Shown here one piece after another: positions 6,824-64,000 of a DNA stretch of 64,000 nt. The translations under genes were made by a program, and so were the position numbers. How positions within the stretch are numbered: position 1 is the stretch's first letter; each line of letters starts with the position of its first letter. This DNA is from Terrimicrobiaceae bacterium (GTDB taxonomy: Bacteria; Verrucomicrobiota; Verrucomicrobiia; Chthoniobacterales; Terrimicrobiaceae). The stretch is taken from the NCBI GenBank assembly GCA_018402345.1, contig JAGYIV010000008.1:310001-374000 (forward strand), given 5' to 3'. The notes under the pieces are model-generated. The model saw nothing but the letters and a program-made list of their open reading frames with translations, did no database searches and was not told the origin of the DNA.

Positions 6824-7966
6824 ATGAAACACATTCTCAGCAAAATCCGCGTCACCAACAGCGTCTTCCTGATTGGAACCTTCGCCACCACCTGCACTGC
6901 CGTCCCGCTCTACATCTGGCACTACGGGCTCGACACCTTCCAAATCGCCCTCTTTCTGTTCTTTTTGATCTCGAGCGGCATCAGCATCACCCTCGGCTAC
7001 CACCGCCTCTTTTCCCACCTGACCTTCAAAGCAAATCCGCTGGTCAAACTCTACACCCTTCTTTTCGGAGCCGCCGCCTTCGAGGGTTCGGCGCTGGCAT
7101 GGTCGGCAGACCACCGCAGGCACCACAAATTTGTGGATCACGACGACGATCCCTACGACATCTCCCGTGGCCTCTTCCACGCCCACATCGGCTGGCTCCT
7201 CTTCCGCCGCGGCCCCGAAACCCCGCTCACCTGGGTGCGCGACCTCCAGCAGGACAAACTCGCCTGGTGGCAACACCAATACTACGTGCCCGTCGCGGTC
7301 TTCATGGGCTTCGGCCTCCCGGCACTCATCGGCTGGATGTGGGGCGGACCGGTCGCCGCGCTCGGAGGGTTTCTCCTCGCGGGCGTCGCACGCATCGTGT
7401 CTGTGCACCACATGACCTTCTGCATCAACTCCCTGTGCCACTGGATCGGCAACCGCCCCTACTCCAGCAAATGCTCAGCGCGCGACAGCTTGATCATGGC
7501 CTTCTTCACGTTTGGCGAGGGATACCACAACTTCCACCACGAATTTCAGCACGACTACCGGAACGGAGTGAAGCCCTGGCAGTTCGACCCCACCAAGTGG
7601 GCAATCTGGCTTCTCAGCAAGGTCGGCCTCGCCAGCAACCTCCGCACCGTGCCCGAAGAGAAAATTCTAAAGGCGCAAATCGCCGAGCAGGAAATCATTC
7701 TCCAAAAGCGCCTGCAAAGCCGGGCCACCCCAGTGACAGACCAGATTCAAGCCATGGTGGACGCCGCACGCGCCCAAATGAACGCGGCCCTGCTTGAATG
7801 GGAGGAACTTCTTGTCCAATACCGCGCCGCCCTTGCCGGGAAAACCGAACTCTCCCGCCGCGAACTCGCCGAGCTTCGCCGCAAGGTGAACGCCGCCTCG
7901 GACAGCTTCCGCGAATCGCTCCAAGCCTGGCGCGACACTTGGCAGGCGATTCCTGTCGGCTGCTAA
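6824..7966 (+). CDS. Acyl-CoA (delta-9 type) fatty acid desaturase with C-terminal coiled coil
   Basis: A membrane di-iron desaturase introducing a double bond into saturated acyl chains. The three histidine boxes are intact: HRLFSH, HRRHHKFVDHDDD and GEGYHNFHHEF, with hydrophobic helices between them. The catalytic part ends near residue 265. A long alanine-, glutamate- and glutamine-rich tail of about 110 residues follows, predicted helical and coiled-coil, which is unusual for the family. The neighbours (EEP phosphodiesterase, S41-like protein) do not suggest a shared pathway. A second desaturase lies at 22356. Confidence 0.92.
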   Translation: MKHILSKIRVTNSVFLIGTFATTCTAVPLYIWHYGLDTFQIALFLFFLISSGISITLGYHRLFSHLTFKANPLVKLYTLLFGAAAFEGSALAWSADHRRHHKFVDHDDDPYDISRGLFHAHIGWLLFRRGPETPLTWVRDLQQDKLAWWQHQYYVPVAVFMGFGLPALIGWMWGGPVAALGGFLLAGVARIVSVHHMTFCINSLCHWIGNRPYSSKCSARDSLIMAFFTFGEGYHNFHHEFQHDYRNGVKPWQFDPTKWAIWLLSKVGLASNLRTVPEEKILKAQIAEQEIILQKRLQSRATPVTDQIQAMVDAARAQMNAALLEWEELLVQYRAALAGKTELSRRELAELRRKVNAASDSFRESLQAWRDTWQAIPVGC

Positions 7967-7973
7967 GCCAATC

Positions 7974-9035
7974 TCACTTCTTGAAAAACCGAATCGCCGT
8001 CACGAGATCGACGGCCCGCTGAAGCACGGGATCACGGAGCGCATCGCCCTCTTCTGATTTGCCTGCTGAAATTTCCGGGTTTGTCCTGGCTACCAGCGCG
8101 GCCTCGTTCATCCGGGGTCGTTCGACATCAAACACAAAGCGGCTCACTCCTCCCGTTTGGCTTTGCTGGAAAACACGGTCGCGCAGTTCAGGATTGAACT
8201 CCACGGGCACGTCGGGCCGCACTCCATCGGGAAAAAGCGCGCCACCGACAGGCATAACCACCCGGGAGACGGCCACTCGCAACACCTTGTCGCCGCCAAG
8301 AGAAAACTCGCCGAACTCGACCCCCTCGCCCGCTGTCGCCGCCCCGACCACCATTGCCCCCGCATGCTCGCGGAGCGTTGCGGCAAGCACCTCCGACGCC
8401 CCCGAGGTCCCGGAATCCACCAACACCAGAAGAATCCCGGAGAACAGCGGATCCTTATCTGAGGTCAGGATGCGTTCTTGCTTGGCACTCGGATTTTGAA
8501 TCGTGAACAGGATTTTCCCCTTCGGCGAAAACCTCCGTGCGAACTCGGCGGCCGATTCCATGTCGCCGCCCGCGGCCACCGCCCTCAGATCCAAAATCAC
8601 TGCAGGGACTTGCTTGCCGGTGAAATTCTCCAAGGCCGCATCGGTTTGACCGAGCGCCTTCTCATCCAAGGTTCCCGGGCGGATATATCCCGCCTGCCCA
8701 TCGAGAATCTCAGCGAGAAATGGCGCGCCCGCACCGACCGCTATCGTGCCTGAGCCGAATCCGATCCCGGGGGCGAACAGTGCTCCGAACCCCTCGAGCA
8801 ACGCCCGCTGCTTCGCGGCGGCATCAAGCTTATCCGCTCCTTGGAAATTGATTTCGAACACTTCCAACGCCTTCTGCACTTGGGCATTGTCCAGCCCGTC
8901 GACCCATTCCCCGAAACCCGGTGCCGACACCGGCGCTGGCGTGGGTTCGGGACTCGGCGTGGGCGACGGAGCGGACTCCGTGGCATGCAGAACAGGCAAC
9001 AAGGTGAAAAGCAGAAGAATCCGGCGCGTGGTCAT
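7974..9035 (-). CDS. S41 (C-terminal-processing) peptidase homologue, catalytic dyad lost
   Basis: A 353-residue exported protein: signal peptide (ILLLFTLLPVLHATES), a Pro/Ser/Thr linker, a short helical segment, then an S41-type core without an obvious PDZ domain. In active members the Ser is three residues before the Glu of SASE, and the Lys is 22 residues after that Glu. Here GTSGASE places Gly212 at the Ser position, and TAGEGVEF places Glu237 at the Lys position. Surrounding family sequence (LVLVDSGTSGASEVLAATL) is well kept, so the alignment is firm. The inference is a non-catalytic substrate-binding or scaffold protein. Its start overlaps the purD stop as ATGA. Confidence 0.8.
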   Translation of the reverse strand: MTTRRILLLFTLLPVLHATESAPSPTPSPEPTPAPVSAPGFGEWVDGLDNAQVQKALEVFEINFQGADKLDAAAKQRALLEGFGALFAPGIGFGSGTIAVGAGAPFLAEILDGQAGYIRPGTLDEKALGQTDAALENFTGKQVPAVILDLRAVAAGGDMESAAEFARRFSPKGKILFTIQNPSAKQERILTSDKDPLFSGILLVLVDSGTSGASEVLAATLREHAGAMVVGAATAGEGVEFGEFSLGGDKVLRVAVSRVVMPVGGALFPDGVRPDVPVEFNPELRDRVFQQSQTGGVSRFVFDVERPRMNEAALVARTNPEISAGKSEEGDALRDPVLQRAVDLVTAIRFFKK

Positions 9036-10309
9036 GGCATTCGGCGTGGAGCACCAATGTCGTTGCGCCGCTGCATCCCGTCGAAGGAAATTTCATCCGC
9101 CCCCAAGTAAGCCAACGCCCGAGCAGCCTCCAACCCGAGTGCCTTGCCGGTAACACCCAAGACACGCCCGCCACTCGTCAGCACCTGCCCGTCGCTTGCC
9201 TTGGTTCCGGCATGGAACACCTCGACCCCCTCGATGAATGCGGCCTTTGAAAGCCCATGGATCGCCTTCCCCTTCTCGTAGGCCCCCGGATACCCACCAG
9301 AGGCAAGAATCACACACACCGCAGCGGCATCGTCCCAAACAGGAAATTGGTCGGTGAGCGTGCCGTCGATCGTGGCCTCGAGCAGCGGCACCATGTCGGA
9401 ATTCAACCGCCTCACCAGCACCTGAGTCTCGGGATCCCCCCACCGGCAGTTGAACTCGAGCACCTTCGGCCCCTCGGCGGTCAACATCAGCCCGGGGAAA
9501 AGCATTCCACGGAAGCTCAACCCATCGGCCCGGATACCTGCCATGAAACGGTCGAGGATTTCCGCGCGGATACGTGCCGTCATTTCCTCGTCGACTGTGC
9601 CGGACGGACAAATCGTGCCCATGCCGCCGGTGTTCAAGCCGAGGTCGCCGTCGAGCGCCTTCTTGTGGTCGCGGCAATCGGGAAACAACAAATACCCGCT
9701 CCCATCGACAAGCGCGTGGATCGAGCATTCCACCCCGACCAGAAACTCCTCGACCACAACCTTCATTCCGGCGGCGCCAAACACCTTGTCCTCCATGCAC
9801 GTCCGGATCGCCGCATCGGCCTGCTCGGCATCCGCGGCGATGATCACACCCTTCCCGAGGGCCAATCCGTCTGCTTTCACCACGAGCGGATAGTTCGCTG
9901 CGCGGCAATAGTCGCGCGCCTCGGCGCTGTCGGTGAATTCCCGATACGCGGCGGTGGGAATCCCGTGCCTCTGCATAAAATCCTTCGCAAACGCCTTGGA
10001 CGACTCCAACCGTGCCGCAGCCGCCCTCGGCCCGAAAATCCTCAACCCGGCATCCTCGAACACATCGACCACCCCAGCCGCCAAGGCGTCATCCGGCCCG
10101 ACCACAGTCAGGTCAATCCGGTGCTCGCGGGCAAATGCCAGCAAGCCCGCTGCGTCCTCGGGAGAGATCGGCACATTCTCGCCAATCAATGCGGTGCCGG
10201 CGTTCCCCGGAGCCGCATACACGCGTTCGACCCGTGAAGACTGGCTCAACTTCCAGGCCAAGGCATGCTCGCGCCCGCCGGAACCGGTGATTAGAATTCT
10301 CATGCCCAT
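9032..10309 (-). CDS. purD: Phosphoribosylamine--glycine ligase (GAR synthetase)
   Basis: Second step of de novo purine synthesis: joins glycine to phosphoribosylamine with ATP, in the cytoplasm. The 425-residue length fits. Features: N-terminal MRILITGSGGREHALAWKL, PDDALAAGVVD, the ATP-grasp stretch VVKADGLALGKGVI, DHKKALDGD, NTGGMGTICP and EFNCRWGDPETQ. An alternative ATG at 10303 would drop two residues. No other pur gene is nearby; it sits 3 bp downstream of an odd lipoprotein gene and overlaps the S41-like gene. Confidence 0.97.
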   Translation of the reverse strand: MGMRILITGSGGREHALAWKLSQSSRVERVYAAPGNAGTALIGENVPISPEDAAGLLAFAREHRIDLTVVGPDDALAAGVVDVFEDAGLRIFGPRAAAARLESSKAFAKDFMQRHGIPTAAYREFTDSAEARDYCRAANYPLVVKADGLALGKGVIIAADAEQADAAIRTCMEDKVFGAAGMKVVVEEFLVGVECSIHALVDGSGYLLFPDCRDHKKALDGDLGLNTGGMGTICPSGTVDEEMTARIRAEILDRFMAGIRADGLSFRGMLFPGLMLTAEGPKVLEFNCRWGDPETQVLVRRLNSDMVPLLEATIDGTLTDQFPVWDDAAAVCVILASGGYPGAYEKGKAIHGLSKAAFIEGVEVFHAGTKASDGQVLTSGGRVLGVTGKALGLEAARALAYLGADEISFDGMQRRNDIGAPRRMP

Positions 10310-10312
10310 TGG

Positions 10313-11002
10313 TTAAAAATGCAGAGTGGCCGTGGCGGCGGGGAGCATCTCGCGGGCGAGCAAAAATGTGCTTCCATTGGCCATGAATTTTTCCCCGACA
10401 CTCCATCCGCGAGCCCCGGAACCTGTGGGAATCACCAACCGCGGCTTCAATTGACCGATCAATGCCTCCCTGACGCCCGCACCCATCCCCTGCGGAGCCA
10501 TGAACAACACATCCACCCGCCCGATCTGGGCGAGTTGATCGGCATCCAGCGGACGCACCGGACTTTCCGCAAAGCAATAGCGGATGCCATCCATCGTCCA
10601 CAGATAAACGAGGTTCATGCCGAGCGAGGAGGCAACCTCGGGGTTCATGTAAATCGGCACACCGAGAATCTTGATGCCTGTGATGTTGTTCACCCCGATC
10701 CCGACCCCGCCACGCAGAATCGCCGGCTGGTTGGTCAACGAGTTCACATTGTTGTTCCGCGGGGATTCGGAGGTGACCAACACCACGTCGCTATTTAGGC
10801 TCGCGGGCAACGACCTCCCGTCAGTCTTGGCAGCATAAGGGTTGGTCAGGATCGATGTGCCGATCGGCGAGGTGATGCGGAAACACTCGTTGCCCAGCCA
10901 CTCGATCCGAGTATAGCGGGGACCGGCAGGTGTGGCGGCTTCGCGGCCTCCGCACCCGGCCACCGCCAGGACAAACGCCGCCAAAAGCAGGACCCGGCGC
11001 AT
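10313..11002 (-). CDS. Lipoprotein with degenerate metallo-beta-lactamase-like fold
   Basis: A 229-residue protein with a lipoprotein signal (LAVAGC lipobox). The mature part resembles the UlaG/COG2220 branch of the MBL fold: IEWLGNECFRI, GTSILTNPYA and DVVLVTSESPRNN in the order expected for the first strands and the metal loop. The metal-binding HxHxDH is absent; that position reads Ser78-Glu-Ser80-Pro-Arg82-Asn83. A later stretch, VDVLFMAPQG, follows the fold but has no metal-binding residues. It is probably not a hydrolase. It lies 3 bp after nuoG and 3 bp before purD, all on one strand. Confidence 0.62.
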   Translation of the reverse strand: MRRVLLLAAFVLAVAGCGGREAATPAGPRYTRIEWLGNECFRITSPIGTSILTNPYAAKTDGRSLPASLNSDVVLVTSESPRNNNVNSLTNQPAILRGGVGIGVNNITGIKILGVPIYMNPEVASSLGMNLVYLWTMDGIRYCFAESPVRPLDADQLAQIGRVDVLFMAPQGMGAGVREALIGQLKPRLVIPTGSGARGWSVGEKFMANGSTFLLAREMLPAATATLHF

Positions 11003-11004
11003 GG

Positions 11005-12638
11005 TCAGGCGGGAAGCGTCAGTTGCACCCCGAGATCGCCCACCCGGCTGATCGTCAGACTCTCAAGCACGGAAACCCCGGAAGCCATCAGCTTGAAGAC
11101 CTCCTCGATGGTGTAGATGCCATTCGCTCCGGAGACCGCATGGATCAAGTCGCGCAGGATTTCCCAGTCGTCCCTCGCCTGGCCGGGCGGGTTCACCGCC
11201 TTGTTCAAGCGCTGCAAACGGCCTTTGAGGTTGATCATCGTGCCGCGCTTCTCGGCCCACGCGCTGGATGGCAGAACGACATCCGCAAGCCCCGTGCTGG
11301 TGTTTTCAGGATGCCCATGACAACGAGCGCCCCGAGCTTTTCCAATGCCCCGTTCGAGATGCCGCAGTCGACCGCATCCTCGCCGAGGACAAGAAGGGTT
11401 TGAATCGCGCCGGACTCCACGCCACTCACGATCCCCGCCATCTTGCCCGTGGCCATGCCCAGAAGCTTCGCGCCGGTGGTGTTCGGATTGCCGTCGTCGG
11501 ACACAAGGAACCCGTCGCCCTGCTGAGGCCGGAGCAACACATCGAACTGGTCGATCTTGAGCGCCTCGGCAAGTCGTCGGGCAAGGAAGAGTTCCTCGTT
11601 CGTCATGCGCGCGGAGGCGATCATTGCCGTCTTCGTAGGATCGCACCCGCGAAGTTTCCCGGCAGCGGCCTCGATCGCGCGGGTCCATTTGGCGGGGGCT
11701 TCCTCGCCCTTCACCAGCGGATCCTTCAAACGCGCCTCGCTGTTCAGGTAGTGGAAATTCAACCGGTGGCTGTCGGGCATCCAGCAGGAGTTCACAAAAT
11801 CGTTCTCACGGGGAGTGATGCGGTAAACCACATTCTCGCGGCTGGAGATGAGAATATTCGACCCCATTCCGCAATTCACATCGATGCTCTTCGTTTCCTT
11901 CAGAAACCAGACGCGCATCTTGAAACGGAAGTCCTTGCTCGTCAGTGCGCCCACGGGGCAGATGTCCACCGTGTTCAGCGAGTAGTTGCTGTCGAGCCGC
12001 TTGCCAGGGTAGACCGACAACGTCGTGTGGCTGCCGCGGTTCAAGAAGCCCAGCACGTCGTCATTGGCGATCTCCTTCATGAACCGGATGCACCGCGAGC
12101 ACATGATGCACCGCTCGTCGTCGAGCACGATCCGCTCGCCGATATCCACCCGCTTGGGCTTTTTGACTTTTTCCTCGCGAAAGCGGGACTCGCCCTTGCC
12201 GAACTCGACCGAAAACTCCTGCAACCGGCACTCGCCGGCCTGGTCGCAGATCGGGCAATCGAGCGGATGGTTAATCAACAAAAACTCCATGACCCCCTTG
12301 CGGCACTCCTCCACCAGCGGCGACGTCGTGCGCACGCCCATGCCCTCGCTCACCTCGGCCGAGCAGCAAATCTCGGGCTTCGGCCCCCAGGCGATCTCCG
12401 GGCGCCCTTCGGCGTCGAGCACAGGTTGGCGGTCGGGAGCCATCTTCGGCCGCCCCGTCTCCACAAGGCACATGCGACAATTCCCGGGGGAACTCAATTT
12501 CGGATGGTAGCAATAATGCGGAATGAATTTGCCGCTTTGCATGCAGGCCTCGATCACTCGCGTGCCTTTAGGGAACTGCTTCCACTCCCCGTCGATTTGC
12601 ACATTGACCATTGCCACAGGTGTTGCCGTCTCGCTCAT
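11005..12638 (-). pseudogene. nuoG: NADH-quinone oxidoreductase subunit G, interrupted by a one-base frameshift
   Basis: Iron-sulfur subunit of respiratory complex I. The N-terminal [2Fe-2S] cysteines (CYHPKLSSPGNCRMC), the His-Cys [4Fe-4S] motif HPLDCPICDQAGEC and a ferredoxin-type motif (CIMCSRC with CPVGA) are intact, followed by a molybdopterin-type domain. The frame breaks near 11314-11318, after ALVVMG. One missing base there restores HPENTSTGLADVVLPSSAWAEKRG and continues to a natural stop at 11005, about 544 residues in all, at the short end for the family. No slippery heptamer is seen at the break. No other nuo gene is in the window. SD-like AAGGA lies 11 bp before the ATG. Confidence 0.82.
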
Positions 12639-14916: not shown

Positions 14917-17900
14917 TCACAAAAAATCGCCGTCAGCCCCGAGTGCGGCGGTCGTGCTGTTGATGATCGAGGCCAGACGCTTCACCCCTGGGAAATCCAG
15001 CATACACGCCCAAGGCGACTTGGTGACCTCGAAATCCGCCGCGGGCAGGACCTCCCTCCACTGCGCCGCCGTGTCTGGCTCGACATCGGCGGGCAACACA
15101 ACCGTCACCGGAAAATCGCACTGCTCGATCTGATACGACTTCCAAAGCTCAAGATGCCTCTGCTCGACATCGCCACCCAGCCCGCCGGGCTCCATGCGCC
15201 GGGGCGGGGGGGATTTTTTCAATGCCTTCTTCAACGTGCCCAGCCACCCGGCAGGCACCTCGTGTCGCGGCGGCATCGCACCAAACAACAACAACCTCGG
15301 CAACGGCCGTCCCGCCGCCGCCAATTGCCTCGCCATCTCAAGCACAACCGTTCCCCCGAATCCAAACCCCGCCAACTGGTATGCCTCGGATCGCTCCTCT
15401 TCGAACAAGGCCGCCAGATAGTGCGCGGCAGCGCTTTCCACCGACGGATGGCATGCCTCGGGATTCGATGCGCCCCGGGCCTCGATGCCGAGCACCGGGC
15501 GCTCCGGGCCGAGCGCTTTCAGCAATTCCATGTATTCCCGCGGATCGCCCGAGGCGGGATGGACCAACACAAGCAACTCCCCTCCCTCGCCGGTCTGCAT
15601 TTTGACCAGCGGCGTCCATGCCTCGGCCGATGATCGGCGCGGCGGCTGTTGGCGTTGCGCGGCCTCTTGGCGCACGGGGCTTGCGGATGCCTGCTCCAAT
15701 TGAGGTTCGGCAGGCGCGGCGGCGCCCCGACCTGGCAAGGCGGAAACCTCCACCCAGCCGGCCCTGTTGAGCGGCCATTCGTCCACACGCACCGCTCCAG
15801 GCACTTCATCCGTGGAAAGCACATACACGTCACCGGCGACACAGACATCAAGGGCATGCGCATTGAAAGGAACACCCGCCGATCGCTCCGCGGCCCCCGG
15901 AAGGCCGGTGCAGATGTTTTCCTCGCTCTCGATCGTGACATCCCCGAAGGCATCCCGCCAACCAAGCAGCCCCAACTCCACCCCGAGGCGCCCGCCACCG
16001 CCGGTGAGATTCTTCCAGCCGGGAAATTTCATATGCACCGAGGCGGCGAATCCCGGCAACACCTCCATGCCATCCTCGTCGGCCAGAAACACCTGCACAT
16101 CCCCTGTGGGCTTTCCCACTGGGAGTGTTGCGAGGTCTTTTCTGGCAGCCCCTGCGATCCCCATGCCAACCAGACCTGCGGGACTGAAAAAGACCACCTG
16201 GTGCAGCGGCGGGTGCAACCTCGTGTGCCACACAGTCCGGGCGATCTGCGAGGGCATGCCGGCCTCGACCGCGACCACCCGGAGGGTGTCCGCCGGCGGC
16301 GGGCTTCCGCGCAACCACGCTGCGGCCTGGTTCGCCCACTCGGGTGTAGCCAACCGCAAGTGCGTCACCGGCGCGGTCGCAGGTTCTTTCAAGTCCTCGT
16401 CGGCGATGTGAACCGTCCCGCCGGTGAGCAATGGAATGAGCCACTCGTCGAAAAACGCCCCACTTCCAGGAACCGCCCGGGCAAGGAACGACTCGCCGGG
16501 CTTGAAATCCATCACCCTCGCCCCCTCGAGCGCGGCCGCAGCCATCGTCCCATGGGTCAACGCCCCGAGCACCGGCAATTCGCACCCCTCGTGTCCCGGC
16601 AACGTTGCCGCCAACCGGTCCGGGGTGATTTCCCTCGGCTCCAACAATGCAAGCTCGAGCGTGTCCCAATCCTGGTCGATCACGATGCAACGCCTCTGCG
16701 ACTGGTCGATGCCCGGCGCGGTGCCCGCATCACAGACGACCACCGCGACATCGTGCGCCCCGAGGGTCCTCTCGATCCATGCGGCGTCCGCCTCGGGATC
16801 GATCGCGATGCATGAATTTCCGGCCTTCCACGCACCAAAGAGCGCGACTCCAATCCACGCGGAGGGCGACAGGATCAACCCAGTGTGCCAACCTCCCGCA
16901 AATCCGGCCTGGGTCAAATGTGCGGCCAACTTGTCGGACAACTCGTCCAATTCCGCATAGCTCATCACATAGTCGCCACATCGAATCGCCACGCTCCCGG
17001 CGTGCGCCTGCGCCACCGTGCGAAACGCCACGACCAGCGAGGAGGGCGTCTGCGGAACCTCGGCACCGCGCGTCCAATCCCGCAACACACGAATCTCATC
17101 GGGTTGCAGGATCGGCATCCTGTCGACCGGCTTGTTGTAAATAACGGAGATTCCGGAAATCAATCCGACCAACCGCGACAACACATCCTTCGCCACAGCC
17201 TCGGTCGAAAACGGCCCGGACAGAACCAACTCGAGCCGGGGCCCGGGATGCGCCTCCAGATACACCCCTGCGACATCCACCTGGCGGGGCTGCGCGTCGA
17301 AATTGATCCACCTCGGCAGGGCGGTGTGGACAACCGTGTTGATCGTCCCGGTCTTCGAGGCGTAGGCCACGGGAATGTCAGTGGCCCGAAATTCAAGACC
17401 CGCCTCCCGCAATGCGGCATCAGGCTCGATCCAAGTGTGCTCGGACAGCGCATCAGTGCGTTCCTGCTCCTCGGCAAGCCATTCGCGCACCGTGCCCCTC
17501 CACGAGTGGGCCACGGGCAACCAGTTCTGGAAATACCCGGCCTCGGCCGACTCTCCGCGCCCATCGAAGAGCACGTTCATCACATTGCCCTTCGCCCCGA
17601 GGCGCCTTAGGAGCAGCGCAAACAGGCAGCGCACCATCAGGCTCTCTTCCAAATCGTGATCGAGGCAAAACGTGGAAAACTCCGCGGTCTTGTCGCGATT
17701 GAGCAGGATCGACGCCCTCGCTATCGATCCACTTCCGTGCCGAGGAGACAACACCTGCGGCGCCTTGGCCTCCTTCAAAAACCCCTCCCAGCCCTTCGCA
17801 GGCAATTGAGCGGGCATCTCCCCGGCGGGAGAAATCCGGGCGTCGCCAAGCGTCAACAGGAGATCGACGAGAATCCGGGTCGTCGAAAAATCGTCGAGCA

Positions 17901-18315
17901 AATACGAGGGACAGGAAAGCAGATGGTGGCTCGCGCCCCCGGGCAACATGATGGCATGCCAGCGGAACAACGGCACCGCCAACGCCTCGAATTCGTTTCC
18001 TGCGTCGCGCACCAGCAACTCGTTCCACTTCGAGGGGATGTCCTCCGGCGGGATGCTTTTCCAATCGAGCGCGATCCAGTCGGGTTCGCCCTTCTCCGCC
18101 TCCCGCACCATGAGCCCCGTTCCGGTTTTGATGAACGCGGAGCGGAGGATGGGATGCCGGTCGAAGACCGCCCTCCATGCCTGGCGCAATTGCTCCAGAT
18201 CGACAATCTCGCCGAAGCTGATCGAAATTTGGCGGGTCGCTCCGGCGACCCGCGGCGCGGCCTCGTGGCGCAGGAAGGCCGCCGCCTGCATCGGGTTTGC
18301 CGGATATTGGCTCAT
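14917..18315 (-). CDS. NRPS-like C-A-TE protein with all catalytic motifs degenerate
   Basis: 1132 residues, uninterrupted. Residues 1-440 are a condensation fold (start PMQAAAFLRH; WRAVFDRHPILRSAF). Where HHxxxDG is expected the sequence is PSYLLDD (136-142). Residues 440-860 are an adenylation fold (A1 MSYAEL, A2 GAWKAGNSCIAID), but the A3 phosphate-binding loop is missing before LTHGT (586-590), YGPTE is replaced by FSPAG, and the A10 lysine is Trp854 (PLNRAGWVEV). No carrier domain follows, only an Ala/Gln/Pro linker (860-900). Residues 905-1120 are a thioesterase fold with GFGFGG, Gly985 replacing the nucleophile Ser, and Trp1102 at the His position. It lies 19 bp after ilvD. Probably a binding or scaffold protein; function unknown. 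Confidence 0.8.
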   Translation of the reverse strand: MSQYPANPMQAAAFLRHEAAPRVAGATRQISISFGEIVDLEQLRQAWRAVFDRHPILRSAFIKTGTGLMVREAEKGEPDWIALDWKSIPPEDIPSKWNELLVRDAGNEFEALAVPLFRWHAIMLPGGASHHLLSCPSYLLDDFSTTRILVDLLLTLGDARISPAGEMPAQLPAKGWEGFLKEAKAPQVLSPRHGSGSIARASILLNRDKTAEFSTFCLDHDLEESLMVRCLFALLLRRLGAKGNVMNVLFDGRGESAEAGYFQNWLPVAHSWRGTVREWLAEEQERTDALSEHTWIEPDAALREAGLEFRATDIPVAYASKTGTINTVVHTALPRWINFDAQPRQVDVAGVYLEAHPGPRLELVLSGPFSTEAVAKDVLSRLVGLISGISVIYNKPVDRMPILQPDEIRVLRDWTRGAEVPQTPSSLVVAFRTVAQAHAGSVAIRCGDYVMSYAELDELSDKLAAHLTQAGFAGGWHTGLILSPSAWIGVALFGAWKAGNSCIAIDPEADAAWIERTLGAHDVAVVVCDAGTAPGIDQSQRRCIVIDQDWDTLELALLEPREITPDRLAATLPGHEGCELPVLGALTHGTMAAAALEGARVMDFKPGESFLARAVPGSGAFFDEWLIPLLTGGTVHIADEDLKEPATAPVTHLRLATPEWANQAAAWLRGSPPPADTLRVVAVEAGMPSQIARTVWHTRLHPPLHQVVFFSPAGLVGMGIAGAARKDLATLPVGKPTGDVQVFLADEDGMEVLPGFAASVHMKFPGWKNLTGGGGRLGVELGLLGWRDAFGDVTIESEENICTGLPGAAERSAGVPFNAHALDVCVAGDVYVLSTDEVPGAVRVDEWPLNRAGWVEVSALPGRGAAAPAEPQLEQASASPVRQEAAQRQQPPRRSSAEAWTPLVKMQTGEGGELLVLVHPASGDPREYMELLKALGPERPVLGIEARGASNPEACHPSVESAAAHYLAALFEEERSEAYQLAGFGFGGTVVLEMARQLAAAGRPLPRLLLFGAMPPRHEVPAGWLGTLKKALKKSPPPRRMEPGGLGGDVEQRHLELWKSYQIEQCDFPVTVVLPADVEPDTAAQWREVLPAADFEVTKSPWACMLDFPGVKRLASIINSTTAALGADGDFL

Positions 18316-18334: not shown

Positions 18335-20032
18335 TCACAACCCCGCGTCGGTCACCGCACCCTCGGATGCGGTGGAGACAAGTTTCGCGTATTTCGCCAG
18401 CACGCCGCGCGTCATGCGGGGCTTGGGCTTTTTCCATTTGGCCAGCCGCGCCTCGATTTCCTTCTTTGGCAAATCCAGCGTGAGCGTGTGCGCGATGCCG
18501 TCGATCGTGATCAAGTCGCCGTTTTTCACAATCGCCAGCGGCCCCCCGTCGAACGCCTCCGGGGTGATATGCCCGACCACAAATCCATGCGTGCCGCCGG
18601 AGAACCTTCCGTCGGTGATCAACGCCACATCTTTGCCCAGCCCGGCGCCCATCACGGCACTCGTGGGCGAGAGCATCTCCCGCATGCCGGGCCCGCCGCG
18701 GGGCCCCTCGTAGCGGATCACGATCACATCCCCCTTTTTCACCTTGTTCGAAAGAATCGCCTCAAGCGCGTTCTCCTCGGACTCGAACACCCGCGCGCGT
18801 CCGCTGAATTTCTCGCCTTCCTTGCCGCTGATCTTCGCCACTGCCCCGGCGGGCGCGAGATTGCCTTTCAGAATGACAAGGTGGCTATCCTTTTTGATCG
18901 GCGCCTTGAGCGGTTGCACAATCGTCTGGCCCTTCGGATAGGGCTTGAAGGGCGCGAGGTTCTGCTTGAGCGTTTTTCCGGTCACCGTCAGGCAGTCGCC
19001 GTGCAGCAGGCCCTCACCAAGCAGCGTCTTCATCAGCGGAACGATGCCTCCGATCTCGACAAGCTCGCTCATCAAATACCGGCCACTGGGCTTCAAATCC
19101 GCAAGCACAGGCACTCGCGCGCCGATGCGCGTGAAATCCTCGAGCGCGAGCTTGATGTTTGCCGTGTGCGCGATGGCAAGGAGGTGCAATACGGCGTTCG
19201 TCGATCCTCCCAGGGCGATCGTGACCGTGATGGCGTTCTCCAGCGCCTCTTTGGAAATGATGTCGGACGGGCGGATGCCGCGCTTGAGCAGATTCAACAC
19301 CGCCGCGCCGGCGTTCCGGCAATCGGCGGTTTTCTGCGCCGACACCGCGTTTTGCGCGGAGCTGTTCGGCAAGCTGAATCCCATCGCCTCGATCGCGGAG
19401 GCCATCGTGTTGGCGGTATACATGCCACCGCAAGAACCCGGCCCGGGGATCGCCCGCGATTCGACGTCGTGCAGTTCTTTTTTGGAAATTTTGTTCGCAG
19501 CGCATTGCCCAACTGCCTCGAAGACGGACACGACATCAAGTTGCCGCTTGGCCAAGCACCCAGGCTGGATCGTGCCGCCATAGACAAAGACCGACGAGCG
19601 ATTCATCCGGGTCATCGCCATGACGCAGGCAGGCATGTTCTTGTCGCAACCACCGATCGCCACAAACCCGTCGAACCCTTGGCAACCGACCACCGTCTCG
19701 ATCGAGTCGGCGATCACCTCGCGCGAGACCAACGAGTATTTCATTCCCTGCGTTCCCATCGAGATGCCGTCGGAGATCGTGATCGTGTTGAAGATCGTCG
19801 CCTTGCCTCCAGCGGAATCGACTCCCAGCGCGGCCTCGCGGGCGAGTTGGTCGATATGCATATTGCAAGGCGTGACCATGCTCCATGTGGAGGCGATGCC
19901 GACCTGAGGCTTGGAAAAATCACTCTCCTTGTAACCGACCGGATACAGCATCGCCCGGCTCGGGGCGCGGCTGAGGCCATCAAAAACTTCGGAGGAATAC
20001 GGGCGGGGATCGGGTTTCGGCTTGGTGGGCAT
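18335..20032 (-). CDS. ilvD: Dihydroxy-acid dehydratase
   Basis: Dehydrates 2,3-dihydroxy-isovalerate and its methyl homologue in valine/isoleucine (and pantothenate) synthesis; an Fe-S enzyme of the cytoplasm. Motifs: [11 protein letters not shown] with a cluster cysteine, [34 protein letters not shown] and VVGHITPEA. 565 residues from the ATG at 20032 ([13 protein letters not shown]); 12 further codons are open upstream. The CoaE gene ends 48 bp upstream, so coaE, ilvD and the NRPS-like gene may share a transcript. No ilvC, ilvB or ilvE nearby. Confidence 0.96.
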
Positions 20033-20080
20033 AAACAACTCGTGAGTATTTCGACTCCCCACCCCCAAGGAAAGGCATTT

Positions 20081-62121: not shown

Positions 62122-62640
62122 CTACTTCAAAGCATCGAGCGCCGCCTGAACCTCCCCGGCATGCTTTGCCGTTTCCGCCGACTCCGCCTTCCACGCGACC
62201 TTGCCGTCCTTCACCAGAAACGACTGGCGCTTGGCAACCGGCATCCCGAGGATCCCGGGAACTCCAAACGCCTCGGCGATCTTCCCGTCGGCATCCGCCA
62301 CCAAGGGATAGGGCAGGTTGTATTTTTCACGGAATTTTTTCTGTGCCGACGCCTTGTCCCGGCTCACCCCGATGACTTGCAAATGTTCCGCCGAAAGCGT
62401 CTCGAACGCATCCCTCAACGAGCAAGCCTGGGCAGTGCATCCGGGCGTGTCCGCCTTCGGATAGAAAAACACCAACACCACCCCGTTGGCGTAGGCGTCG
62501 GCGAACTTGAACGGGTTCCCGTCCTGGTCGACTCCCTCCACCTGCGGCGCCGCGGCGCCGACCTCGATGGCTTTTGCTTTGCCGCCAAATCCAAAAATGC
62601 CCATGGTGATAAGTGTAACAAGTGCCGTGCGGATGAACAT
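62122..62640 (-). CDS. Bcp/PrxQ-type thiol peroxidase, exported
   Basis: 172 residues: a short N-terminal hydrophobic segment (ALVTLITMGIFGFGGKAKA), then a peroxiredoxin domain: VLVFFYPKADTPGCTAQACSLRD with peroxidatic Cys and a resolving Cys five residues on, VIGVSRDKASAQKKF and LVKDGKVAWKAE. Reduces hydrogen or lipid peroxides with a thioredoxin-type donor. The signal-like N-terminus suggests a periplasmic location, unusual for Bcp. ATG 62640 chosen since the upstream frame lacks likeness. Confidence 0.88.
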   Translation of the reverse strand: MFIRTALVTLITMGIFGFGGKAKAIEVGAAAPQVEGVDQDGNPFKFADAYANGVVLVFFYPKADTPGCTAQACSLRDAFETLSAEHLQVIGVSRDKASAQKKFREKYNLPYPLVADADGKIAEAFGVPGILGMPVAKRQSFLVKDGKVAWKAESAETAKHAGEVQAALDALK

Positions 62641-62696
62641 GGGAAAAACCCTACAAGCCACTCCCCGCACCCGCAAACGTTGATTTCCCGGACTCT

Positions 62697-64000
62697 GTGA
62701 ACTCCCGCATCCTTCTCCTAACCGCCCTCCCGGCGTCCACCTGCGCCGCCCTCCCTGCCTTTTTTTCGAGGGAGGGCATTTACACGAGGGTCGCCGGAGC
62801 GTTCGAAGCCGGGTGGGGCACAACGTCACCGGTAAACCATGCCTTGGCTGCCGCTTGGCGCCTGGGGGGGATTCACGCCTCCGAGGCGCTGCTGTTTCTC
62901 ATGACCTTTCTGCCATGGATGCTTCTCTTCGCCGTCATCGGCCTGGCCACCCACCGCATGCATCGCGGGAACGCCTCACGCATCCGTCTTGCCGCACTGA
63001 TTGGCGCCCTTGCCCTCGGCGCGCTCGGTCTCCGCGAAACCGCCCATGCCATCCGCACCGATGTGCGCACCCCGGAACTCGCGGGACCAGTTCTCCTTGC
63101 CGCCGAGGCCACATCCCTCGACGGGCACGTCCTTCTCGACCGCCGCACGCGGGCGTTCGCCCTCATGTTCGGCCACCAGGTTTCCAACGAACCCGTGTCC
63201 CCGGAAACCCTCCAATCCCCCCTCGCCTGGAGAACCGCCCATCGCGAGTCCCCCTTCTCCGCCGTGGCGCTCGCCTACCCCTTCGATTCCTCCCGCCAAC
63301 TCTTTGAAACCCTGTCCGCCTCGCCGGACTGGACGCTGGCGAAAATCGACAACCAAGGGGTGCTGTTTCGAAACGCCGCATCCTCCACGGAAATCCCTTC
63401 CGCCCAAACCGCCCGGACCCTCTTCGATTCCCCGCGCGAGCAAGCCTTCTGGCTCGCCCAGTCCGCCCTCGTTCTTCAATCAACCGGCCATAACACCCCC
63501 GCCACGGCTCTGATGGAAGAGGCATTGAAACTCGCCCCGGCGGATTCTGCGGTTTTGACCAAGGCCGCATCCCTTTCCTCAGCCCATGGCAAATGGCGCC
63601 GCGCCAAGTCCGAGGCGGAACAAGCCACCGCCAGGGATTCCCGCTCTATTTCCGCCCGCTACCTCCTCGCCCTCGCCTGCATGAAAACCGGATCGCTCGA
63701 CCGGGCATTGGACGAATCCGCAACACTCGTGCGCCTCGCTCCAAGCGATGCGGCCAGCCATCTCCTGCGCGCCCGCATCGCGGAGGCGGCAAACGACCCA
63801 ACCACCGAGGCGGATGCGTTGGAGCGCCTTCTCGACATCGCCCGGACACAAAACCAACCCACGGAAGGCATCAGAATCCTTCTTGGCCAGGCCTGGGCAC
63901 GCGCCGGATTCCCCGAGCAGGCCCTCCAAAACAACCGCGCCGCCCTCGCAGGGGAACTCACCCCTCGGCAACGCAAACTGATCGAGGACTCCATCGAACT
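62697..64000 (+). CDS. TPR-type membrane protein (3' truncated by window edge)
   Basis: A reading frame of 434 codons from GTG 62697 with no stop before the edge. Two or three hydrophobic segments lie near the N-terminus (SEALLFLMTFLPWMLLFAVIGLA and RLAALIGALALGALGL), then a periplasmic region and from about residue 275 helix pairs of TPR type (TALMEEALKLAPADSAVLTKAASL; GSLDRALDESATLVRLAPSDAAS; GFPEQALQNNRAAL). No enzyme motif. Divergent from the peroxiredoxin gene with 56 bp between. Confidence 0.7.
   Translation, partial: MNSRILLLTALPASTCAALPAFFSREGIYTRVAGAFEAGWGTTSPVNHALAAAWRLGGIHASEALLFLMTFLPWMLLFAVIGLATHRMHRGNASRIRLAALIGALALGALGLRETAHAIRTDVRTPELAGPVLLAAEATSLDGHVLLDRRTRAFALMFGHQVSNEPVSPETLQSPLAWRTAHRESPFSAVALAYPFDSSRQLFETLSASPDWTLAKIDNQGVLFRNAASSTEIPSAQTARTLFDSPREQAFWLAQSALVLQSTGHNTPATALMEEALKLAPADSAVLTKAASLSSAHGKWRRAKSEAEQATARDSRSISARYLLALACMKTGSLDRALDESATLVRLAPSDAASHLLRARIAEAANDPTTEADALERLLDIARTQNQPTEGIRILLGQAWARAGFPEQALQNNRAALAGELTPRQRKLIEDSIE

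Follow-up and report, generated by a model that had tools for sequence, protein, structure and literature searches.

A free-standing condensation-adenylation-thioesterase module lacking its catalytic residues, conserved mostly behind ilvD in Chthoniobacterales, as a candidate pseudoenzyme

The core motifs of nonribosomal peptide synthetases (NRPS) have well-established names and roles, namely HHxxxDG of the condensation (C) domain, A3, A4, A5 and A10 of the adenylation (A) domain, the serine of the carrier domain (peptidyl carrier protein, PCP) and the catalytic residues of the thioesterase (TE). Dead domains inside working synthetases are also known. One of them is C1 of VibF, reportedly a catalytically inactive condensation domain kept for dimerization. 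We are aware of no case in which an entire synthetase module is retained as a free-standing pseudoenzyme. The X-domain of glycopeptide NRPS is described, in part of PMC6565677, as a dead condensation domain in which HHxxxDG has become HRxxxDE and which recruits P450s. Here, a gene was analyzed that lies in a window of 64,000 nucleotides (contig JAGYIV010000008.1 of a Terrimicrobiaceae bacterium, order Chthoniobacterales) and encodes an NRPS-like protein with C, A and TE domains, termed below the pseudo-NRPS protein. Tentatively, at a rough probability of 0.4, it would be a non-catalytic pseudoenzyme that acts by binding, with branched-chain amino-acid synthesis as the most likely setting.

A preliminary description of this stretch had reported one uninterrupted C-A-TE frame of 1132 codons with no carrier domain. 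Translation and Pfam bear this out, with the frame located on the minus strand; frame 1 of the plus strand across 14917-18315 contains stops. Pfam recognizes AMP-binding at residues 431-554 (E 3e-17) and Thioesterase at 915-1020 (E 2e-16), together with a Condensation match at 3-124 (E 5e-5) that falls under Pfam's cut-off, and detects no carrier domain in the protein. The substitutions named previously (PSYLLDD, the missing A3 loop, Trp854, Gly985 and Trp1102) fall where they had been placed when the protein is aligned with the working-type modules L101, L061 and L062: the A3 loop is replaced, the latter three residues occupy catalytic places, and the A5 Glu position is Gly. Gly985 takes the nucleophile place also in HMMER alignments to solved thioesterases, while Trp1102 is set at the TE His by HMMER only in a second stretch against 7dxo and 7crn that is not significant alone. 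The window protein has neither the second His of HHxxxDG, A3 with A10, the A5 Glu, the carrier serine nor the TE nucleophile with its His. No aligned active-site residue is intact in it, and no member of its protein family was found with all active sites intact.

The folds are nevertheless recognizable. A full-length AlphaFold model, built on 17 sequences, has a mean predicted local distance difference test score (pLDDT) of 60. Its best Foldseek matches are the complete C-A-PCP-TE modules 4zxh (E 1e-38), SrfA-C and EntF; TM-scores for these first three matches are low, at 0.35-0.38, and the relative placement of the domains is not fixed by the model. In VIA-align, the A part (residues 422-825) matches 4d56 with Z 26.2 over 322 aligned residues at a root-mean-square deviation (rmsd) of 3.1, and 1amu_B with Z 25.4 over 407 at rmsd 4.8, while stretches spanning C and A reach Z 24-25 at rmsd 15-17. 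The TE part modelled alone (pLDDT 76) matches thioesterases of NRPS and polyketide synthases, with a best E of 1e-12. All three folds, C, A and TE, are accordingly found in a single chain by Pfam, Foldseek, VIA-align and the TE matches. For the profile of the family's C part, ordinary C domains are on top (8hlk, E 7e-47; PvdL, E 8e-46). The structures 4tx2 (E 7e-14) and 6m7l (E 2e-10), which we take to be X-domains, rank 16th and lower of 56, and score above some other ordinary C domains; judged by its nearest solved relatives, the C part is not an X-domain, since ordinary C domains rank best. From these comparisons the window protein would be a former terminal NRPS module whose three folds can still be recognized.

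Searching with the window protein gave full-length orthologues within its own genus and family; in other parts of the order the orthologues were more distant. A profile built from 21 members, with at most three candidates scored per genome, identified the gene in 33 of 213 genomes of the order, one family-level copy each, distributed over the taxonomic families f1 (23 genomes), f2 (2), f7 (4) and f9 (4). Uncut members exceed 1000 bits; for other proteins the best single score is 345 bits within the order and, in the class, 508 bits (genome G381). No further carrier was seen among samples of 286 class genomes and 387 phylum genomes. Named database records, taken for near relatives only (17 loci), read Spartobacteria, Chthoniobacter, Terrimicrobiaceae, Chthoniobacterales and other Verrucomicrobia bins. 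The gene is retained in two 0.9-Mb genomes, one of which, G031, consists of a single contig of 915,884 bases, and is absent from the f12 and f13 genomes and from G016 (71% complete); absences are not all certain, because many of the genomes are fragmented bins. In an IlvD tree of 45 rows, f1, f2, f7, f9, f12 and f13 are split from the other families with 99 in the Shimodaira-Hasegawa-like approximate likelihood ratio test (SH-aLRT). With the gene missing from f12, f13 and G016, the distribution reads as ancestral presence followed by losses. Horizontal spread from elsewhere was rejected, as family-level matches occur in one order only and GC content at third codon positions is 0.771 against 0.711-0.801 for the neighbours, and so was a phage or virus origin, the viral contig scan having confirmed no relative.

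Losses at the same sites recur in close and distant relatives, as seen in a homologue search of the kind suggested in the preliminary description. Motifs were tabulated for the 29 complete members, the contig-cut genes of G001, G006, G011 and G022 being set aside. The catalytic second His of HHxxxDG survives in one of the 29, and the Gly of that motif in none, where Glu (22), Arg (3), His (2), Asp (1) or Asn (1) stands instead. The A3 loop and the A4 Asp are likewise missing from all 29. Two of 28 members, L047 and L050, have an aligned A5 Glu (a further row is a gap), and none of the 28 that could be scored has the A10 Lys. At the TE nucleophile place Gly is found in 29 of 29, and the TE His in none of 28 scorable members, one row again being a gap. 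The carrier serine is absent throughout (0/29), and the carrier domain itself from 25 of the 29; the four f9 members retain an aligned carrier remnant. Several individual loci should be noted here. The f9 remnant, lying between A and TE in L051 (7979-11572), L052, L053 and L102, has no serine and is not detected by Pfam in L051; it apparently preserves an intermediate stage of the module's decay. L054 (1576-5097; G026, f2) is the sole complete member with both histidines, in the motif HHSLFDE, and its C domain might retain some chemistry. In L038 (8367-11633; G003) the residues matching 829-862, which form the A10 region, are missing, though present in the 94% identical L037.

Loss of catalysis without decay of the frame had been ascribed to selection, and this has held: the losses are common to the 29 complete members, their frames are open, and the ratio of nonsynonymous to synonymous rates (dN/dS) is far below 1. 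By the Nei-Gojobori method, 13 of 14 pairs lie between 0.065 and 0.187 and the remaining pair, L052/L053, at 0.317; the pairs share sequences and are not independent, and dS is saturated between the window gene and L031 (2.1) and in L048/L049 (2.7). The pair from the two 0.9-Mb genomes gives 0.187. For ilvD in ten of those pairs the values are 0.011-0.054. When eight pairs were split at approximate domain bounds, C, A and TE all gave 0.045-0.197. Furthermore, 42 positions are family-specific: they are conserved in 86% or more of the members but are matched by no more than 5 of the 16 synthetases used for comparison. They include W80, W85, W97, P125, H130, P334, W336, D340, D529, W696, G717, G719, D823 and G985. 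A further 51 conserved positions are common to the family and the synthetases, Asp141 of the old motif among them. The family-specific positions and the low dN/dS together argue that the protein is under a constraint of its own. Homology to enzymes, absence of their catalytic residues and purifying selection are combined here, and we read the whole NRPS module as a pseudoenzyme.

In a tree of the 29 members and 19 comparison synthetase modules, obtained by a quick search without bootstrap and containing several long branches, a branch with an SH-aLRT of 100 separates the 29 from all the others. L056, which has no C domain, was excluded from this tree and from the count of family-specific positions, while L060 was retained; the motifs of comparison rows other than these two were inspected in part. 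With the root among the synthetases, f9, with its carrier remnant, branches first, at an SH-aLRT of 92 that is under the 95 mark. Alignment and tree can be read such that the carrier domain lost its serine first and vanished later. Since L054 sits inside the clade, repeated loss of the condensation His is possible. L060 itself (7322-11170; G050, f8), of 1282 residues, has condensation, carrier and thioesterase motifs beside a degenerate A region, in which the A3 loop is missing and the A10 Lys replaced, and groups with the synthetases. The coordinates of the window features are collected in Table 1.

Table 1. Positions in the window of the pseudo-NRPS gene, its degenerate domains and motifs (domain bounds approximate), and ilvD.
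Feature	Coordinates	Strand	Basis
Pseudo-NRPS gene, 1132 residues, C-A-TE without carrier domain	14917..18315	-	Translation of the open reading frame, Pfam, Foldseek
Degenerate condensation domain, residues 1-400	17116..18315	-	Pfam; C-part family profile
Former HHxxxDG motif, PSYLLDD, residues 136-142	17890..17910	-	Translation, motif alignment
Degenerate adenylation domain, residues 401-870	15706..17115	-	Pfam; VIA-align to 4d56
Place of the A3 phosphate loop, TLPGHEGCELPVLG, residues 571-584	16564..16605	-	Motif alignment
Trp854 at the A10 Lys place	15754..15756	-	Motif alignment
Short linker where a carrier domain would sit, residues 871-894	15634..15705	-	Alignments
Degenerate thioesterase domain, residues 895-1132	14920..15633	-	Pfam, TE model, HMMER, structure matches
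Gly985 at the thioesterase nucleophile place	15361..15363	-	Motif alignment; HMMER to solved thioesterases
Trp1102 at the thioesterase His place	15010..15012	-	Motif alignment; HMMER stretch non-significant
ilvD (dihydroxy-acid dehydratase), 19 bases upstream of the pseudo-NRPS gene	18335..20068	-	Gene scan, locus comparison

Regarding the neighbourhood, ilvD is the one conserved neighbour, while the others mostly change between genera. It stands directly upstream on the same strand, at a gap of 3-78 bases, in each of the 26 loci measured in f1, f2 and f9; in the remaining carriers of these families (G011, G021 and G094) ilvD sequence adjoins the gene by coordinates. Both coaE and ilvD had been put forward as companion genes. 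The ilvD part stands for three families as a matter of gene order, one that is broken in f7 and partly confounded by shared ancestry, whereas the coaE part does not, and coaE was dropped as a functional partner because none of the other listed loci has a relative of it next to the gene. All 33 carriers possess ilvD, and ilvC was found in 31 of them. A hidden, diverged copy behind ilvD was also considered and rejected: no profile match was obtained in 20 ilvD neighbourhoods (18 of non-carriers and two of f7 carriers; that of L136 spans only 3.9 kb), and the same profile matched the carriers' own loci.

Further features of these loci deserve mention. Several of the more distant loci have a TPR gene and an AhpC/TSA gene ahead of ilvD, which may point to an ancestral order of AhpC/TSA, TPR, ilvD and the pseudo-NRPS gene. 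At 62122-63998 the window contains a divergent pair of AhpC/TSA and TPR genes, and relatives of one or both of these stand before ilvD in several f1 (g3, g5) and f9 loci. In some members of the genus the gene lies beside a CbiX-like gene; in G004, CbiX and the gene that follows are present without the pseudo-NRPS gene and without ilvD. No ilvC was found in either G004 or G002. In L047 (6800-8331; G031, f7) two ABC ATPase genes converge on the pseudo-NRPS gene, one product with the C-terminal domain of branched-chain amino-acid transporters and the other with a sub-threshold match to the same domain, and relatives of both occupy the same place in L050. Elsewhere in the window, at 11235-12638, an open reading frame of 467 residues is NuoG-like and covers 1-339 of the 606 positions of the NuoG model, approximately its first half.

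The proposed function is built on two steps. Binding, probably, rather than chemistry would be the mode of action, because the active sites are lost while the gene stays intact under selection, mostly behind ilvD; and the partner or ligand is placed in branched-chain synthesis because the gene lies close behind ilvD in three families. As a working picture, a terminal NRPS module would have turned long ago into a non-catalytic protein, whose C-A platform and thioesterase-like lobe might hold a partner protein or a small molecule, much as the X-domain holds P450s. The partner could be IlvD itself, or the ligand a pathway acid seated in the old substrate pockets. Co-produced with IlvD, the protein would bind IlvD or the acid and thereby tune or protect the dehydratase step. 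The fuller version, in which a whole NRPS module was co-opted as a stand-alone protein that regulates or scaffolds primary branched-chain amino-acid synthesis without catalysis, acts with IlvD and matters enough to be kept in a 0.92-Mb genome, is rather doubtful at present.

A number of observations weigh against this proposal. L054 has both histidines of the condensation motif, and L047 and L050 have the A5 Glu. In G021 the ilvD beside the gene (L042, 11655-12788) has an in-frame gap of about 187 codons next to an open pseudo-NRPS frame; G021 holds other ilvD copies, and the gap may be a binning or assembly fault. No ilvC was found in the carriers G014 (72% complete) and G019 (95%), and ilvB is found in G004, a 93% complete bin. 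Co-loss with the branched-chain pathway was thus set aside as a weak argument, because G004, which has neither ilvC, ilvD nor the gene, keeps ilvB, and because G014 and G019 show no ilvC. Operon genes, moreover, are inherited and lost together without any shared function, and it is quite possible that the protein is a non-catalytic binder unrelated to branched-chain amino acids that stays behind ilvD by operon inheritance. In all four f7 genomes the gene persists away from an ilvD that lies elsewhere, and in f12, f13 and G016 ilvD persists without the gene, both of which speak for this reading. Against it stands the adjacency kept at every measured locus in three families, where most of the remaining neighbours gave way to different genes, and the two genes are jointly absent at the syntenic spot of G004.

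Three other explanations were considered. The protein could be a new enzyme, with the old active sites gone and new catalytic residues elsewhere in the folds. Polar residues are indeed among the family-specific ones (H130, D340 and D529 in 29/29 each, D823 in 27/29 and H652 in 25/29), but 25 of the 42 positions are Trp, Pro, Gly or Leu, and inspection by eye, without coordinates, recognized no known catalytic arrangement, so that this seems improbable. A helper that docks or recruits in trans for NRPS assembly lines elsewhere in the cell would have a parallel in the dead C domain that plays such a role inside assembly lines, as part of PMC6565677 describes for the X-domain. An assembly line for it to serve is not evident in most of the carriers searched. 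When 18 carriers were searched with the Pfam Condensation model, 11 showed the pseudo-NRPS gene only, three (G017, G020 and G033) gave no match at E 0.001, and four (G018, G019, G025 and G026) had another C domain; G005, G021 and G055, carriers outside this set, have other NRPS-like matches. No other condensation domain was therefore found in 14 of the 18, including the two 0.9-Mb genomes, although an equally degenerate second protein could escape, because the Pfam model misses or barely sees the family. The trans role is on this count disfavoured and very improbable. That an ordinary NRPS is decaying into a pseudogene would account for the vanished catalytic motifs, but full-length frames are open in the 29 complete members across four families, the gene is kept in 0.9-Mb genomes, and this reading is already refuted by the purifying selection (dN/dS 0.065-0.187 in 13 of the 14 pairs) and disfavoured by the distribution; it is hardly credible. 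Binding within branched-chain synthesis remains the account preferred here.

The clade provides a natural series of stages: working-type C-A-PCP-TE modules come first, next a form whose carrier remnant has no serine, and last the forms in which the carrier is gone. The transition from enzyme to presumed binder can therefore be followed. Annotation pipelines probably label such genes as NRPS, which would overcount biosynthetic capacity. If the tie to IlvD is true, it would represent a novel control of an essential amino-acid pathway. Searches of the open-access literature gave no description of such a protein by title or start of abstract, subscription papers being mostly outside that scope, and neither "peptide synthetase" nor "adenylation" was matched in two Xiphinematobacter papers, in the main text of PMC4607532 and in part of PMC7857533.

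Compared with known systems, the terminal modules of EntF, SrfA-C and AB3403 resemble the family in overall architecture and folds, as the Foldseek matches indicate, but they are active and possess a carrier domain and catalytic residues. The same domain order is found in single-module C-A-PCP-TE synthetases of the class (G381, L101 7925-11839; G365, L166 3060-7163; G313, L165), and among proteins from outside the order none scores higher with the family profile than that of G381, at 508 bits. L101 and L165 differ from the family by a working-type second His, A3, A5, A10, carrier serine and TE Cys, and L101 and L166 by a carrier domain recognized by Pfam. The G381 synthetase and ilvD are on separate contigs, and no common partner gene was seen near the relatives in G381, G313 and G365 among the few genes scanned. 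The likeness to VibF C1 is that of an inactive C domain kept for protein-protein contact, whereas VibF C1 is one domain of a larger synthetase. The X-domain is by analogy the best precedent for the putative binding role. As far as part of PMC6565677 describes it, it is likewise a condensation fold inactivated through a change in HHxxxDG and turned to binding, and the Gly of that motif has become Glu in 22 of 29 family members. The difference is one of scale: the X-domain is one domain within a working synthetase, while the family represents a whole, free-standing dead module.

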